From a virus: a stretch of 21,752 nt of DNA. This document shows positions 5,270-20,829 of the stretch, one piece after another. Below the pieces are notes generated by a model. It ran no database searches and was not told where the DNA came from. It saw only the letters and a program-made list of their open reading frames with translations. How positions within the stretch are numbered: position 1 is the stretch's first letter; each line of letters starts with the position of its first letter. Where the stretch lies: the IMG/VR virus record IMGVR_UViG_3300028563_000077, positions 1 through 21,752 of that record; one strand, written 5' to 3'. Both the position numbers and the translations under genes were made by a program.

Positions 5270-6133
5270 ATGGAAACCAACAACAAGACGGAAGCGCAGA
5301 CCGTCGCCGAACTCTGCGCCAGGCTCAACCAGCCCACCCTCAACGTCAAACGAGAGGGTGTGGCCGTGTTCCCCAACGGAACCATCATCTCGCTCGAAAA
5401 CGAGCTGCTCGCCGACAACCCGAAGCGCAAGCGCGCCAAGGTCGGCCTCTATGAGGCCGAGTCGTTCATCGAATACGTGAAGCGGTTCATCCGGCTGGGC
5501 TGCTCCATCATCTTCGGCGCGGCATCGGAAACCGGCGGGGCGTTCAAGGCCATCCTCGACTATCACGCGGCCGAGGCCGGTGGCGATGGCGCAGCTCACT
5601 GGGGCGAGCACATCTGCACCCTGACGCTGGCCACCACCCCGGAGTGGGCCCGCTGGCTGGGCAAGAACAACAGCCCGATGACGCAGGAGCAGTTCGCCGA
5701 CTTCATCGAGGACAACGCGCCCGACATCGTTTCGCCCGATGCGGCGGTGCTCCTGGACATGGCGACCATGCTGCAGGGAAAGAAATCCGTCACGTTCAAG
5801 AGCAGCCGCAACCTGCGCAACGGGTCCATCGAGCTCGCCTATTCCGAGCAGGTGGAGGAGACGAGCGGCCGCCGCGAGGACGCCATGCAGCTGCCCGACC
5901 GGATCATCGTGAAGATGATTCCGTTTGTCGGCTGCGTCGGCGTGGAGATCCCGGCGCGGCTGCGGTTCCGCATCGGCGACACCGGCAAGGTGTCGTTCAC
6001 CTACATCCTCGACCGGCCGTTCAAGGTGCTCGAGGCGGCGTTCAACGCCGTGGCCGCCCAGATCGAGGCGGAGACATCGATTCCCGTCATGCTCGGCATC
6101 GGCGATGTTACACCCCCGCCCACGATCAAGTGA
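5270..6133 (+). CDS. DUF2303 family protein (YfdQ-like)
   Basis: 287 residues. The layout fits the DUF2303 family, known from E. coli prophage YfdQ: an N-terminal part with a short central helix (YEAESFIEYVKRFI), a beta segment (SIIFGAASE) and a conserved middle where a target is presented (AILDYHAAEAGG then TLTLATTPEWARWLGKNNSP), then MTQEQFADFIEDNAPDI and a beta-rich C-terminal half with a long repeat-free sheet region. The family's biochemical role is unknown; it is usually encoded in phage early regions beside recombination or replication genes. The start follows a pyrimidine leader CCTTTCCCCC directly before the ATG. Downstream lies a strong hairpin (6141-6166). Confidence 0.85.
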   Translation: METNNKTEAQTVAELCARLNQPTLNVKREGVAVFPNGTIISLENELLADNPKRKRAKVGLYEAESFIEYVKRFIRLGCSIIFGAASETGGAFKAILDYHAAEAGGDGAAHWGEHICTLTLATTPEWARWLGKNNSPMTQEQFADFIEDNAPDIVSPDAAVLLDMATMLQGKKSVTFKSSRNLRNGSIELAYSEQVEETSGRREDAMQLPDRIIVKMIPFVGCVGVEIPARLRFRIGDTGKVSFTYILDRPFKVLEAAFNAVAAQIEAETSIPVMLGIGDVTPPPTIK

Positions 6134-6954: not shown

Positions 6955-7236
<282 letters not shown>

Positions 7237-7967: not shown

Positions 7968-8936
7968 ATGGCCGACACCACTAAAATCCAATGGGCCGAT
8001 GCCACGCTCAACCCGTGGGGCGGCTGCACCAAGGTCTCGTCCGGCTGCGCCAAATGCTACGCTGAGCACGCCACGCCCGTTCGCGCCATGGGCATCGGCT
8101 GGGGCAAGGGTGTGCCCCGGCATCGCTTCACCGGTTTCGAGGTCAACGCCCTGCGCCTCGACCGCAAGGCCGCCAAGATCGGCCGGCCCCTGCGCGTGTT
8201 CCCCTCCCTGTGCGACTGGCTCGATGCCGAGGTCCACGCCGAGTGGCTGGCCGGCTTTCTCGACGTGGTGCTGCGCACTCCGCACCTGACGTGGATCCTG
8301 CTCACCAAGCGCCCGGAGTTGTGGCGGGAGCGCCTTGCTGAGGCTTGCGCCTTTGCGGGCGCTTTCCGCGAGGATGAGAAGTGGGCGGCAGTGGGCGCCT
8401 GGTGTGACCGTTGGCTGCAGGGCGAGGCCCCGGCCAACGTCTGGTTTGTTTTCAGCGCCGAGGATCAACGCACCTTTGACCTCCGCGTGCCAGCCGCGCT
8501 GGCCGTGCCGGCCGTCATCCGTGGCGTCAGCCTCGAGCCCTTGCTCGGCGAAATCGACGTGCGCGACTGGCTCGGCGCGGTGCTGCCCTCCATCCACGGG
8601 CAAAGCAATTTCCCGATCGATGGCCTCCAATGGGTCATCACCGGCGGCGAGAGCGCCGCGCCTGGCGACACGCCGCGGCGGTGCGAGGTGTTCTGGATTT
8701 GGGCGATCGTGGCGGCCTGCGCCCGGGCTGGCGTGGCGTGCTTCGTCAAACAGCTCGGCGGCTTCTGCACCACGGGCAACGCCAACGCCCACGACTGGCC
8801 CGATGAGACGGTGTTCACTGAGGGAGGCACTGCCTTTGCCGAGGCCCGCGTGCGTCTGAGTCATCCCAAGGGCGGTGACCCGGTGGAATGGCCGCCGGAG
8901 CTGCACGTGCGCCAGTGGCCGGAGGTGAAGCCATGA
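7968..8936 (+). CDS. DUF5131 family protein (phage Gp37/Gp68)
   Basis: 322 residues. The opening MADTTKIQWADATLNPWGGC and C20/C27/C30 (GGCTKVSSGCAKCYAE) are the signature of the DUF5131 family found in mycobacteriophages (Gp37/Gp68) and many prophages. The three cysteines resemble a radical-SAM-type iron-sulfur cluster site, but the spacing is not the classic CxxxCxxC, so that function is a hypothesis. LTWILLTKRPE, VVLRTPHL and VSLEPLLGEI follow in the usual order of the family, and ITGGESAAPGD (the family's GGE(S/T) box) and a C-terminal FVKQLGG are also seen. It sits among replication and methyltransferase genes, which suggests a role in DNA modification. Overlaps the next gene by ATGA. Confidence 0.9.
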   Translation: MADTTKIQWADATLNPWGGCTKVSSGCAKCYAEHATPVRAMGIGWGKGVPRHRFTGFEVNALRLDRKAAKIGRPLRVFPSLCDWLDAEVHAEWLAGFLDVVLRTPHLTWILLTKRPELWRERLAEACAFAGAFREDEKWAAVGAWCDRWLQGEAPANVWFVFSAEDQRTFDLRVPAALAVPAVIRGVSLEPLLGEIDVRDWLGAVLPSIHGQSNFPIDGLQWVITGGESAAPGDTPRRCEVFWIWAIVAACARAGVACFVKQLGGFCTTGNANAHDWPDETVFTEGGTAFAEARVRLSHPKGGDPVEWPPELHVRQWPEVKP

Positions 8937-9070: not shown

Positions 9071-9879
9071 TCCTACCCGACCGCATGTTCTCGGCGGAGT
9101 GGATCCACGACCGCCGCCTGCGCCGGCTGCCGCCCCAGGTGCAGCTGCTGCTTATTTTTGTCCGCCCGCTCTGCGATCGCAACGGGCGTTTCGAGTTCAA
9201 CCCCGCGCTCATTCACATGGCGCTCTACGCATCCGCAGATTGCGGCAACGTGTCGGTTCGGGACGTGGAAGCCTGGCTGGAGATCCTCCGGTCAGGCGGT
9301 TACGTCAAGTCCTACACCGGGGCCGATGGCCGGAGGGTAGGCGAAGTGGCGAAGGAGTATTGGCGGCAGAAGTTGACATTTGGCAAGCAGGTCTACGAGC
9401 CCGAGTCGGACCAGCCCGAACTGGTGCTGCCCGACGCAGACCCACCGCAGCGCCGGATGAGAAGTGATATGAAGGGAGGGGGACACCGCCCGCCCCCAAT
9501 GCCTGCGGCCTTGCCGGACGCTGCCGCGCTGCGCGGACATGCCTTGCCGGCCGAGGATGATGCCGCGTGGATGGCCCGCCTGGCGCGCGAATGGCCCGGC
9601 GTCGACATCGCGGCCCAGCTCGAGAAGGCGCACCGTAAACGGCGCGGCGACGTGGAGCGCGGCTGGTTTGAGGCGGTGTGGCTGCCCGGCGTGACCCCGC
9701 GGGCGCCGCGGCCGGCGGAGAGCCGAGGACAGAGGACGGAAGTCAGAGGGCAGACCATCGACCCTATGGCGGCCGAGGCGGCGCTGGCGGAGCGGCGGGC
9801 CCATTTTGCGGCGATGGCCGAGCCCACGCCGGGCACGCTCGACCATACCCTCTGGGAGGAGGCGAGGAAAACGGCATGA
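9067..9879 (+). CDS. Phage replication initiator/organiser-like protein
   Basis: 270 residues. The N-terminal ~100 residues (MFSAEWIHDRRLRRLPPQVQ, LLLIFVRPLCDRNGRFEF, VEAWLEILRSGGYVKSY) look like a winged-helix domain of phage replisome-organiser proteins, which bind the origin and hand over the helicase. The middle is disordered; a C-terminal part (AAQLEKAHRKRRGDVERGWF then a second helix) is like the helicase-loader contact region. A low-complexity segment around residues 218-230 (SRGQRTEVRGQ) comes from a purine-only DNA tract and was probably inserted. It is in ATGA overlap with its neighbours. No origin was recognised in the gene. Confidence 0.65.
   Translation: MILPDRMFSAEWIHDRRLRRLPPQVQLLLIFVRPLCDRNGRFEFNPALIHMALYASADCGNVSVRDVEAWLEILRSGGYVKSYTGADGRRVGEVAKEYWRQKLTFGKQVYEPESDQPELVLPDADPPQRRMRSDMKGGGHRPPPMPAALPDAAALRGHALPAEDDAAWMARLAREWPGVDIAAQLEKAHRKRRGDVERGWFEAVWLPGVTPRAPRPAESRGQRTEVRGQTIDPMAAEAALAERRAHFAAMAEPTPGTLDHTLWEEARKTA
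9718..9754 (+). repeat. Purine-rich low-complexity tract inside the replication gene
   Basis: An almost purine-only stretch built of GAGGAC and GGAAGTCAGAGG-like units, translated as SRGQRTEVRGQ. It resembles the tracts at 11010-11036, 13651-13684 and 14992-15020 in composition though not in exact sequence, suggesting repeated insertion of a mobile-like simple repeat in coding regions. Confidence 0.55.
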
Positions 9880-10997
9880 AACCATTCCCTTTCGCTGATC
9901 TGTTTTGCGGGGCCGGCGGCACATCCACCGGCGCCAGCGAGGCCATAGAATCGCTCGGCTACCGCCCGGTGCTCACGGCGGTGAACCATTGGCCCGTGGC
10001 CGTGGCCACGCACGAGAAGAACCATCCCGGCGCCCGTCACCTCTGCGCCAGCCTGGACGCGCTGAACCCCCGCGAGCTATTCAAGCCCCGCGAGCTCAGG
10101 CTGCTTTTGGCCAGCCCCGAGTGCACGAATCACTCCCGGGCCCGGCGCGGCCGGCACATCAACGAACAATCGCGGGCCACGGCCTGGTGCGTGATCCGCT
10201 GGGCCGATGCCCTGCGCCCCGACACCGGTTTGGTGGAGAACGTGCCGGAGTTCCGCAACTGGCCATCCTTCCCCGCATGGATTGCCACGCTTGAATCCTT
10301 GGGCTACCGGGTGGAACACCGCATCCTGGTGGCTGCCGATTACGGCGACCCGACCACCCGCCGCCGCCTTTTTATCCAGTATCAGCACGGCCGGCGCCGG
10401 ATCGTATGGCCGGAGCCGACGCATGCGAAAAACAGCGATTTTTTCGGGGCCCGGCTCCCATGGGTGCCGGCCAGAGCCATCATCGACTTTTCCCTGCCGG
10501 CGCAGAAAGTGAGCGAAAGGAAGCGCCCCCTCGCTCCGCGCACCATCGAACGGATCCGCGAGGGACTGCAGAAGTTCGGCGGGGCCGAGTTCCTGATCTG
10601 CATGGAGCACGGCGGCCGGGTGGTTTCAGCCAGCGAGCCATTTCCCACCGTCACCACGGCCAAAGGTGGGGCAATGGCCATCTGCCAGCCATTCCTGATC
10701 AAATACTACGGCACCGCCGGTGCCCGCAGCATCGGCCAGCCATTCGACGCCATCACATGCCGGGATCGGTATGCCCTGGTGATCCCCGAGGCTGGCGACG
10801 TGCGGATGCGGATGATCGCGGCGAAGGAATATGCCGCGGCGCAGGGTTTCCAGCCCGGCTACCAATTCACCGGCACGGGCAGCGAGATCACCAAGCAGAT
10901 TGGCAACGCCGTGCCACGGCGGCTGGCCCGGGCCCTCGTGGCCGCGGCCGTCGGCCAGCAGAGCGACGTGACGCGTCACATGGAGGTGGCAGCGTGA
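9876..10997 (+). CDS. C5-cytosine DNA methyltransferase
   Basis: 373 residues. Motif I, FADLFCGAGGTSTG (residues 6-19), binds S-adenosylmethionine; the catalytic cysteine is C83 in ASPECTNHS, where the usual PC is replaced by PEC as in many phage C5-methyltransferases. Motif VI is ENVPEF (121-126) and motif VIII is TTRRRLF. Motif X appears near the end as KQIGNAVPRRLARAL. The recognition region is between motifs VIII and IX. No restriction endonuclease is adjacent, so it is likely an orphan enzyme protecting phage DNA from host restriction. It overlaps both neighbours (ATGA, GTGA), in one operon with a second methyltransferase. Confidence 0.93.
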   Translation: MKPFPFADLFCGAGGTSTGASEAIESLGYRPVLTAVNHWPVAVATHEKNHPGARHLCASLDALNPRELFKPRELRLLLASPECTNHSRARRGRHINEQSRATAWCVIRWADALRPDTGLVENVPEFRNWPSFPAWIATLESLGYRVEHRILVAADYGDPTTRRRLFIQYQHGRRRIVWPEPTHAKNSDFFGARLPWVPARAIIDFSLPAQKVSERKRPLAPRTIERIREGLQKFGGAEFLICMEHGGRVVSASEPFPTVTTAKGGAMAICQPFLIKYYGTAGARSIGQPFDAITCRDRYALVIPEAGDVRMRMIAAKEYAAAQGFQPGYQFTGTGSEITKQIGNAVPRRLARALVAAAVGQQSDVTRHMEVAA

Positions 10998-12247
10998 GCA
11001 CGATCAGCACAGAGCAAGGAACGGAGAGCAGGGAGCCCATCAAGGCACCGTTTCCGTGGTTTGGTGGAAAGTCGCGGGCGGCGGAGCTTATCTGGTCGCG
11101 GCTGGGGAACGTGCCGAACTACGCCGAACCGTTCGCCGGCTCGCTCGCCGTGTTATTGCGTCGGCCTCATGCACCAGGTAACGAAATTGTCAACGATCTC
11201 GACTGCTATGTGGCCAATGCCTGGCGGGCGATGAAACACGCGCCGGCGGACGTAGCCGCGCATTGCGACTGGCCGGTGAACGAGGCCGACCTACACGCCC
11301 GCCACCGCTGGCTGCATGGCCGGCTGGAGTTTCGCGCCCGGATGGAGGCCGACCCGGAGTTCTATGACGTGCGGATCGCGGCCTGGTGGATCTGGGGCAT
11401 ATCATGCTGGATCGGTGATGCGTTTTGCCGCCCATCGCGGCAAGGTGCGGTGCCAAATATCGCGGGTGAAAAGGGCGTGGCCCGGAAAGTGCCGCACCTG
11501 ACCGGCGGGAAGGGCGTGGCCCGGAAAGTGCCGGCCACACCCGCCGCCATGAGCCCCGATGCGCGAAGCGGCACTCCCCACGGCGAAGCCGTGGTGTCGC
11601 CCAGCGGGGCCGCGATAGCGGAACCGCTGGAGGAAGCGCGGGCAGGTCGTGGCCCGGGTGAATCGTTGACCACATGCGTGGCAAGTGCCGCACCTGACCG
11701 GCGGGAAGGGCGTGGCCCGGAAAGTGCCGCCGGCACCATTCCAAAGCAATTGCCTGACGTCATCGGCACCTATGGCGCGCTCACCCATCGCGGACAACCC
11801 GGCGGAAAAGGCACATGCGGAAAACAGGGCGAAGCGCTCGCGGCGTGGTTTGATGCGCTGAGCAACCGGCTGCGTTTCACCAAGGTGTGCTGCGGCGACT
11901 GGTCGCGCGTGCTCACCAAGGCCGCGACCTTCGGCCAGGGATTGACTGGCGTGCTGCTGGATCCGCCTTACGATGCCGGCGACAGCCACGATGACGTCTA
12001 TGGCGACATGAGCCGAGGTGTGAGCGCCAAGGTGAGTAAGTGGGCGATTGAAAACGGGAAAAATCCGCTCCTCCGCATCGCACTCTGCGGCTATGAGGGC
12101 GAGCACGAGATGCCGCCGGACTGGGAGTGCGTGGCATGGAAGGCTGCCGGCGGATACGGCAATAGAAATGCGGAAAACCAAAATGCCCGCCGCGAGCGCA
12201 TCTGGTTCAGCCCCGCCTGCCTAAAACCTCAACCGGAGCTATTTTGA
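10994..12247 (+). CDS. Dam-type N6-adenine DNA methyltransferase with internal insert
   Basis: 417 residues from a GTG in a GTGA overlap, with a good ribosome binding site (GGAGG, 10982-10986). The S-adenosylmethionine motif PFPWFGGK (19-26) with YAEPFAGSLAVLL (43-55) and IVNDLD (65-70), plus DPPY at 323-326, are the hallmarks of the Dam class, usually ~270 residues. The extra length is mainly an insert at about residues 155-260 made of repeats (GVARKVP twice, basic Pro/Ser-rich text) flanked by normal sequence. The catalytic parts on both sides look intact, so the enzyme may still work with a large loop. The first 12 residues come from a purine-rich tract. Together with the C5 enzyme it would modify phage DNA in two ways. 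Confidence 0.9.
   Translation: MSTISTEQGTESREPIKAPFPWFGGKSRAAELIWSRLGNVPNYAEPFAGSLAVLLRRPHAPGNEIVNDLDCYVANAWRAMKHAPADVAAHCDWPVNEADLHARHRWLHGRLEFRARMEADPEFYDVRIAAWWIWGISCWIGDAFCRPSRQGAVPNIAGEKGVARKVPHLTGGKGVARKVPATPAAMSPDARSGTPHGEAVVSPSGAAIAEPLEEARAGRGPGESLTTCVASAAPDRREGRGPESAAGTIPKQLPDVIGTYGALTHRGQPGGKGTCGKQGEALAAWFDALSNRLRFTKVCCGDWSRVLTKAATFGQGLTGVLLDPPYDAGDSHDDVYGDMSRGVSAKVSKWAIENGKNPLLRIALCGYEGEHEMPPDWECVAWKAAGGYGNRNAENQNARRERIWFSPACLKPQPELF
11010..11036 (+). repeat. Purine-rich low-complexity tract at the Dam start
   Basis: AGAGCAAGGAACGGAGAGCA then GGGAGC, almost purine-only, encodes TEQGTESREP near the N-terminus. It is one of four similar tracts in the prophage genes and is absent from the core Dam fold. 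Confidence 0.5.
11487..11533 (+). repeat. 47-bp direct repeat, copy 1
   Basis: A perfect copy of the sequence at 11683-11729, 196 bases away. Inside it lies a 22-base unit starting GGGCGTGGCCCGG, which also occurs at 11473-11494, so there are three copies of that unit (11473, 11512, 11708). Copy 1 is read as KVPHLTGGKGVARKVP. Confidence 0.85.
11683..11729 (+). repeat. 47-bp direct repeat, copy 2
   Basis: Identical to 11487-11533. The 196-base distance is not a multiple of three, so this copy is read in another frame (SAAPDRREGRGPESA). The Dam gene stays open through both, which points to selection for an open frame or a recent insertion. Confidence 0.85.
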
Positions 12248-20550: not shown

Positions 20551-20829
20551 ATGGATACGCACCTCCGCATCAAGCAGAACGTGGACTGCCGCGGCCGCCA
20601 CCTGGCGGCCGGGCAGGTCGTGGCGCGGGCCGAGCTCACGCGCAAGCAGCTCGATGACCTGCTGGAGAACGGCTTTGCCGCGCCCTGCCCGGCCCCGGCG
20701 GATCCAACCCCGCCGGCCGCGCCCGTGCTCGAGCAGGCCGCCACGCCGCCCATCGCGAGAAGGCCACCACCCGCCGCCGCGGGTGAATGTAAACCAATAG
20801 TATACTGCCCACCGCCGCCCGAAACATGA
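20551..20829 (+). CDS. Small phage protein, proline-rich tail
   Basis: 92 residues. N-terminal ~45 residues (MDTHLRIKQNVDCRGRHLAA then AELTRKQLDDLLENG) form a compact fold seen in short phage capsid-region proteins of unknown role; the remainder is a disordered Pro/Ala tail. The stop overlaps the next ATG (ATGA). No Shine-Dalgarno sequence is visible. Confidence 0.6.
   Translation: MDTHLRIKQNVDCRGRHLAAGQVVARAELTRKQLDDLLENGFAAPCPAPADPTPPAAPVLEQAATPPIARRPPPAAAGECKPIVYCPPPPET

Follow-up and report, generated by a model that had tools for sequence, protein, structure and literature searches.

The insert in the adenine methylase gene of this phage contig is a unit of an in-frame tandem array, which fills the presumed target-recognition region of a whole family of phage D12-class methylases. 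Near-identical phages differ mainly in this array, and the identity between the array copies of one genome is conserved even where one of the copies is read in another frame. We favour the explanation, to which we assign a probability of about two in three, that the array is hypervariable and tolerant of change and that it is homogenised by DNA-level turnover irrespective of reading frame, while selection acts on the catalytic frame. The window, that is the whole stretch of 21,752 nucleotides analysed here, is a virus contig of 21.7 kb taken from IMG/VR.

The methylase gene and its repeats

The features of the gene that are needed below are the following:

10994..12247, + strand: D12-class adenine DNA methyltransferase gene, 417 aa, GTG start, containing the array (from the ORF and its translation, Pfam and the EcoDam-like fold of the family)
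11048..11143, + strand: N-terminal SAM-binding motifs PFPWFGGK and EPFAGS (from the sequence; conserved in the alignments)
11450..11488, + strand: array copy 1 (VPNIAGEKGVARK), first half degenerate, frame 0; 24-nt identity to copy 2 at a spacing of 39
11489..11527, + strand: array copy 2 (VPHLTGGKGVARK), frame 0; it lies within the repeated 47-mer (11487-11533)
11534..11682, + strand: spacer of 149 nt, specific to the window
11578-11594: perfect hairpin CCACGGC-GAA-GCCGTGG in the spacer
11638-11657: degenerate 20-nt unit in the spacer
11683..11729, + strand: out-of-frame copy, read +1 (SAAPDRREGRGPESAA); 47/47 identical to 11487-11533
11960..11971, + strand: catalytic motif DPPY, frame 0

The profile match, the motif order and the Dam-like fold identify the gene as a D12-class N6-adenine methyltransferase. 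Residues 22-88 match Pfam PF02086 with an E-value of 8.6e-8 and 32.7 bits, above the curated cut-off of 22, and the order PFPWFGGK, EPFAGS and then DPPY is conserved across 75 homologues. The modeled structure of one homologue (L039) matched EcoDam, T4 Dam and DpnM (the best Foldseek matches were EcoDam complexes, E 2.5e-6), and the model of the window methylase matched viral adenine methyltransferases. The NCBIfam dam model TIGR00571 gave the window methylase 26.5 bits, which is far under its cut-off of 114.85. EcoDam, T4 Dam and DpnM share the same order of FGGK / EPF, recognition region and DPPY. However, the known D12-class enzymes have a single short recognition hairpin, whereas the present family carries a tandem array of 13- or 14-residue units in the recognition region. 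Judging by the motif order, the array probably follows the segment that corresponds to the Dam recognition hairpin. The window protein and L039, modelled with AlphaFold, have a confident methylase core and a pLDDT below 50 in the array, and the array region is predicted to be disordered.

The sequence-only reading had reported a perfect 47-bp direct repeat in this gene, a 22-base unit occurring a third time and a frame that nevertheless stays open, and all three observations were confirmed. Both 11487-11533 and 11683-11729 hold the 47-mer AAGTGCCGCACCTGACCGGCGGGAAGGGCGTGGCCCGGAAAGTGCCG without a mismatch, and neither side adds a further matching base. The 22-mer GGGCGTGGCCCGGAAAGTGCCG occurs at 11473 besides 11512 and 11708, and the ORF 10994-12247 is uninterrupted. 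As the offset of 196 equals 1 mod 3, the two 47-bp copies are read in different frames and give the peptides VPHLTGGKGVARKVP and SAAPDRREGRGPESAA. Copies 1 and 2 lie 39 bp apart (13 codons, in frame), thus the 47-mer consists of one 39-bp unit and the edges of its neighbours. The unit is open in some frames only, as one alternative frame reads TGA (CACCTGACC). Directly repeated 20-mers occur in the window only in this insert, a GGCTAC microsatellite aside. The off-frame match score of the window is 47, and the maximum in 456 codon-shuffle trials on the variable regions of 152 homologues was 14.

Two further readings were rejected. A simple compensated frameshift across the whole insert does not hold, since a TGA stands in the canonical frame ahead of the shifted copy, and internal starts in the shifted frame (ATG or TTG precedes some shifted copies) gave by eye no sensible product. 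The spacer segment 11639-11658 is 95% identical over 20 nt to 20610-20629, which lies in an unrelated gene downstream of the capsid gene; this likeness may be due to chance in GC-rich DNA. The RNA of the insert (11440-11740) folds more stably than shuffles do (z -3.1), and this may reflect the repeats and the GC content.

A hypervariable array in a methylase family

In viral homologues that are 60, 58 and 41% identical to the window methylase (best segment), an array lies in the corresponding position, flanked by WIGxxxC and DPPY. Its unit is 39 or 42 bp long and encodes 13 or 14 residues, 'PHLxxxGxGVxRx'. The homologue alignment that had been proposed for finding the insert borders thus shows that the relatives have their own spelling of the unit at this very site (LPHLTGGKGVARQVPHLTGGQGVARQ in L005, LPHLGDGGKGVNRKLPHLGNGTGVNRK in L007), and the earlier description of a repeat-built insert between the SAM motif and DPPY holds for the family. 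The sequence-only reading had also taken an insert shared by relatives as a sign of age, and by this measure the insert is an old array, because homologues share it. Widened searches brought the homologue set to 152 distinct genes whose variable region is complete; 92 of them show in-frame repeats in the DNA itself, the period being mostly 42 and otherwise 39, 51 or 54. Many homologues lacking DNA-level repeats keep just diverged units with the motif PxLxxxGxGV, and a single unit in L099 suggests that the array grew from one unit. A further search for host prophages in 788 genomes of two phyla added 3 genomes with homologues, and the five new loci inspected had zero above-threshold repeats in the variable region.

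Comparison of close relatives shows how fast the array changes. The flanks of L194 and L203 are identical at 1831 of 1831 aligned bases, and their arrays differ by 168 nt (4 x 42) with the shifted copy kept; the arrays of L226 and L251 differ by one unit. In the metagenome 3300047539, where seven contigs carry the gene, the arrays differ over all pairs by 12.7% substitutions and the flanking parts by 0.8% and 1.4%; the difference between array and flanks is significant for the pair L204 and L205 (Fisher p = 3e-15), and the arrays differ additionally by indels of whole units. Array copy numbers taken from short-read metagenome assemblies may be affected by repeat collapse, to which the point differences are less exposed. 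The near-identical methylase cores of seven related phage contigs of one metagenome (L204, L205, L208, L210, L217, L231 and L233) were seen with six different mosaic arrays, those of L205 and L208 being the same. The methylase core is under strong purifying selection (for example, dN is 0.04 and dS about 1 between L024 and L175), and therefore the enzymes are very likely functional.

Copies read in another frame

A significant out-of-frame copy was found in 30 of the 152 homologues. The window, L005, L006 and L014 form one clade with a support of 100 (group A), and all four have such a copy at the 3' edge of the array, with an offset that is always 1 mod 3. In a second clade (group B) 22 of the 27 members have it, likewise at the 3' edge and always at 2 mod 3. 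Jointly, 26 of the 152 genes carry a 3'-edge out-of-frame copy in a frame that is constant within each clade. In L159, L184 and L247, which belong to another clade, and in L152 out-of-frame partial copies lie at the 5' edge of the array instead. The distance from the previous copy to the shifted one is 40 nt in L006, 43 nt in L014 and 64 nt in L005; as the spacer lengths differ, either the shift is ancestral and later indels preserved it by coming in multiples of three, or the copy originated more than once. The constancy of the frame is explained in part by stop codons, which often leave just one alternative frame open: TGA occurs in an alternative frame in group A (L006 excepted) and TAA commonly in group B. 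The idea that the element was selected to be stop-free is not supported by this comparison, as the alternative frame of group A mostly has the TGA and both alternative frames contain stops in 14 of the 53 arrays that are purely in frame.

The shifted copies resemble the in-frame copies of their own genome. Over 38 positions the shifted copy matches its own in-frame copies at 38 in the window, 36 in L014, 36 in L005 and 31 in L006. Compared with copies of the other genomes, the window's shifted copy matches at 27-31 of 38 and the maxima for L014, L005 and L006 are 31, 31 and 27, while all comparisons of group A shifted copies with the copies of the other three genomes, shifted or not, span 22-31. 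Outside the array, synonymous sites have reached or approached saturation between the window and its three nearest relatives (core pS 0.67-0.85, pN 0.12-0.22). Therefore, the perfect identity within the window must be young, and the suspicion of a recent origin is justified for the shifted copy, which is either recent or recently homogenised. As the shifted copies match their own genome despite these nearly saturated sites, repeat turnover at the DNA level crosses reading frames.

Group B points in the same direction. Its shifted peptide is SDxTSGT or a close variant, found in the same place in 22 phages, and the shifted copy follows the third positions of the Pro, His and Leu codons of its own array in 21 of 22 cases. 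In the shifted frame these spelling changes replace amino acids (SDL, SDP or SDR; T or I; S or L). The agreement has a permutation p < 5e-5 if shared descent is ignored; when descent is taken into account, the Pro site changed about 4-5 times on the tree and the 2-3 independent pairs all agree, a number too small for significance. The conserved property is the identity between copies and neither a particular sequence nor the peptide. Since only this identity is conserved, recombination or re-copying fits the data and a fixed binding site does not.

Explanations, precedents and neighbouring genes

In the explanation that we favour, units would be gained, lost and homogenised as DNA by slippage, unequal exchange or gene conversion between copies, and this turnover would be blind to the reading frame. 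In the window's clade, spacer indels would have shifted the 3'-most copy by +1, the frame that restores the catalytic part would have been retained, and the shifted copy would later have been re-formed or overwritten from the genome's own array, giving near-identical DNA and a different peptide. The region, predicted to be disordered, would tolerate that peptide, while selection would keep the flanking catalytic parts in frame. We infer recombination as the mechanism and tolerance of the shifted peptide by the array, and variation of the array presumably alters or tunes DNA recognition. RecT, considered as a general cause of the homogenisation, was discarded: a search for annealing recombinases in 14 records, many of them fragments, found RecT in 1 and otherwise none.

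A switch function or an altered specificity is possible. In its fullest form, which we consider rather unlikely, the units would be recognition modules that set the target by their number and variable residues, recombination would diversify methylation in the population and the out-of-frame edge copy would serve as the partner for switching off. It is unlikely, too, that the out-of-frame copy as such is a selected recombination partner, whose exchange with an in-frame copy would delete units, shift the frame and turn the methylase off, while exchange between in-frame copies would alter only the unit number. Deletion between the matched copies does give a product that lacks DPPY in 30 of 30 genes, it is the identity between copies rather than their sequence that is preserved, and array length differs among near-identical phages. 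However, zero off alleles occurred among the collected homologues (although the search favours open frames), such a deletion is non-reverting by itself, and 5 members of the second clade have no detected shifted copy. If the shifted peptide itself were selected, for instance for capping the helix that runs to DPPY, the DNA similarity would be incidental. The recurrent peptide of the 22 phages of one clade agrees with this; yet its variable residues track the synonymous spelling of the genome's own array, most relatives with an array have no shifted peptide, and group A uses another frame and other peptides, so that we regard this alternative as quite unlikely.

The variation could also come from a diversity-generating retroelement or from misassembly, as the hypervariation is limited to one stretch of one gene. 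Nevertheless, the reverse transcriptase profile RVT_1 matched in 0 of 14 records, some of which are fragments, and artefacts would not give a pattern that is found in 26 assemblies and two clades with a conserved frame; both origins are very improbable. The mobile or palindromic mini-element that the sequence-only reading had proposed is extremely unlikely. The perfect 47-bp repeat, the small hairpin and the unusual 149-nt spacer would suit such an insertion, but relatives have this unit, each spelled in its own way, at the corresponding site. Additionally, the unit occurs nowhere else in the window's record, its 20-nt core is absent from all other viral contigs searched, and a comparison of the insert with plasmids and phages gave zero matches.

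Repeat instability within a gene is known from phase-variable methylases, which use simple sequence repeats. Unlike in those genes, a change of copy number alone keeps the frame here, because the 39/42-bp unit is a multiple of three; all in-frame periods (39, 42, 51 and 54) behave in this way, and the frame would shift only by exchange with the out-of-frame copy. The multispecific phage C5-methyltransferases SPR and phi3T have a modular variable recognition region. These are C5 enzymes with distinct recognition modules, whereas the present family has a homogenised tandem array. A further likeness is found in the Type I specificity protein HsdS of EcoR124I/II, where the number of short in-frame TAEL repeats varies and changes the recognised spacing (PMC3874165). 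These repeats provide a precedent for specificity being set by short in-frame repeats. The TAEL unit differs in that it is helical, has 4 residues and lies in a separate subunit, between two TRDs, and the passages on these repeats describe no out-of-frame copy (PMC3874165).

Literature searches limited to open-access papers found neither such an array nor methylase repeats homogenised out of frame; this absence is weak evidence and at most a lead to novelty. The finding would be a variant of the known D12 methylases, with a hypervariable tandem array in the presumed recognition region and a repeat that crosses the frame. It offers a clean natural case of concerted evolution in which the likeness of DNA copies is maintained across reading frames, with the effect that a change which is silent in one copy alters an amino acid in another. 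The data indicate that a hypervariable repeat array is widespread in the presumed recognition region of phage adenine methylases, and it may enable phages to alter how their DNA is methylated and so to counter restriction systems.

Several other features of the record were noted. The GGCTAC microsatellite comprises about forty-three copies with GGCGAC variants at 6979-7234, within a small ORF (6955-7236) that codes for YGSGYGSG and DGDGDG and whose product is possibly an unstable low-complexity protein. A DUF2303 protein is encoded at 5270-6133 and a DUF5131 protein (E 3e-48) at 7968-8936. A C5-cytosine methylase gene (PF00145) occupies 9678-10997 and overlaps the first 4 bases of the adenine methylase gene (GTG at 10994); the two methylases are likely a translationally coupled pair.
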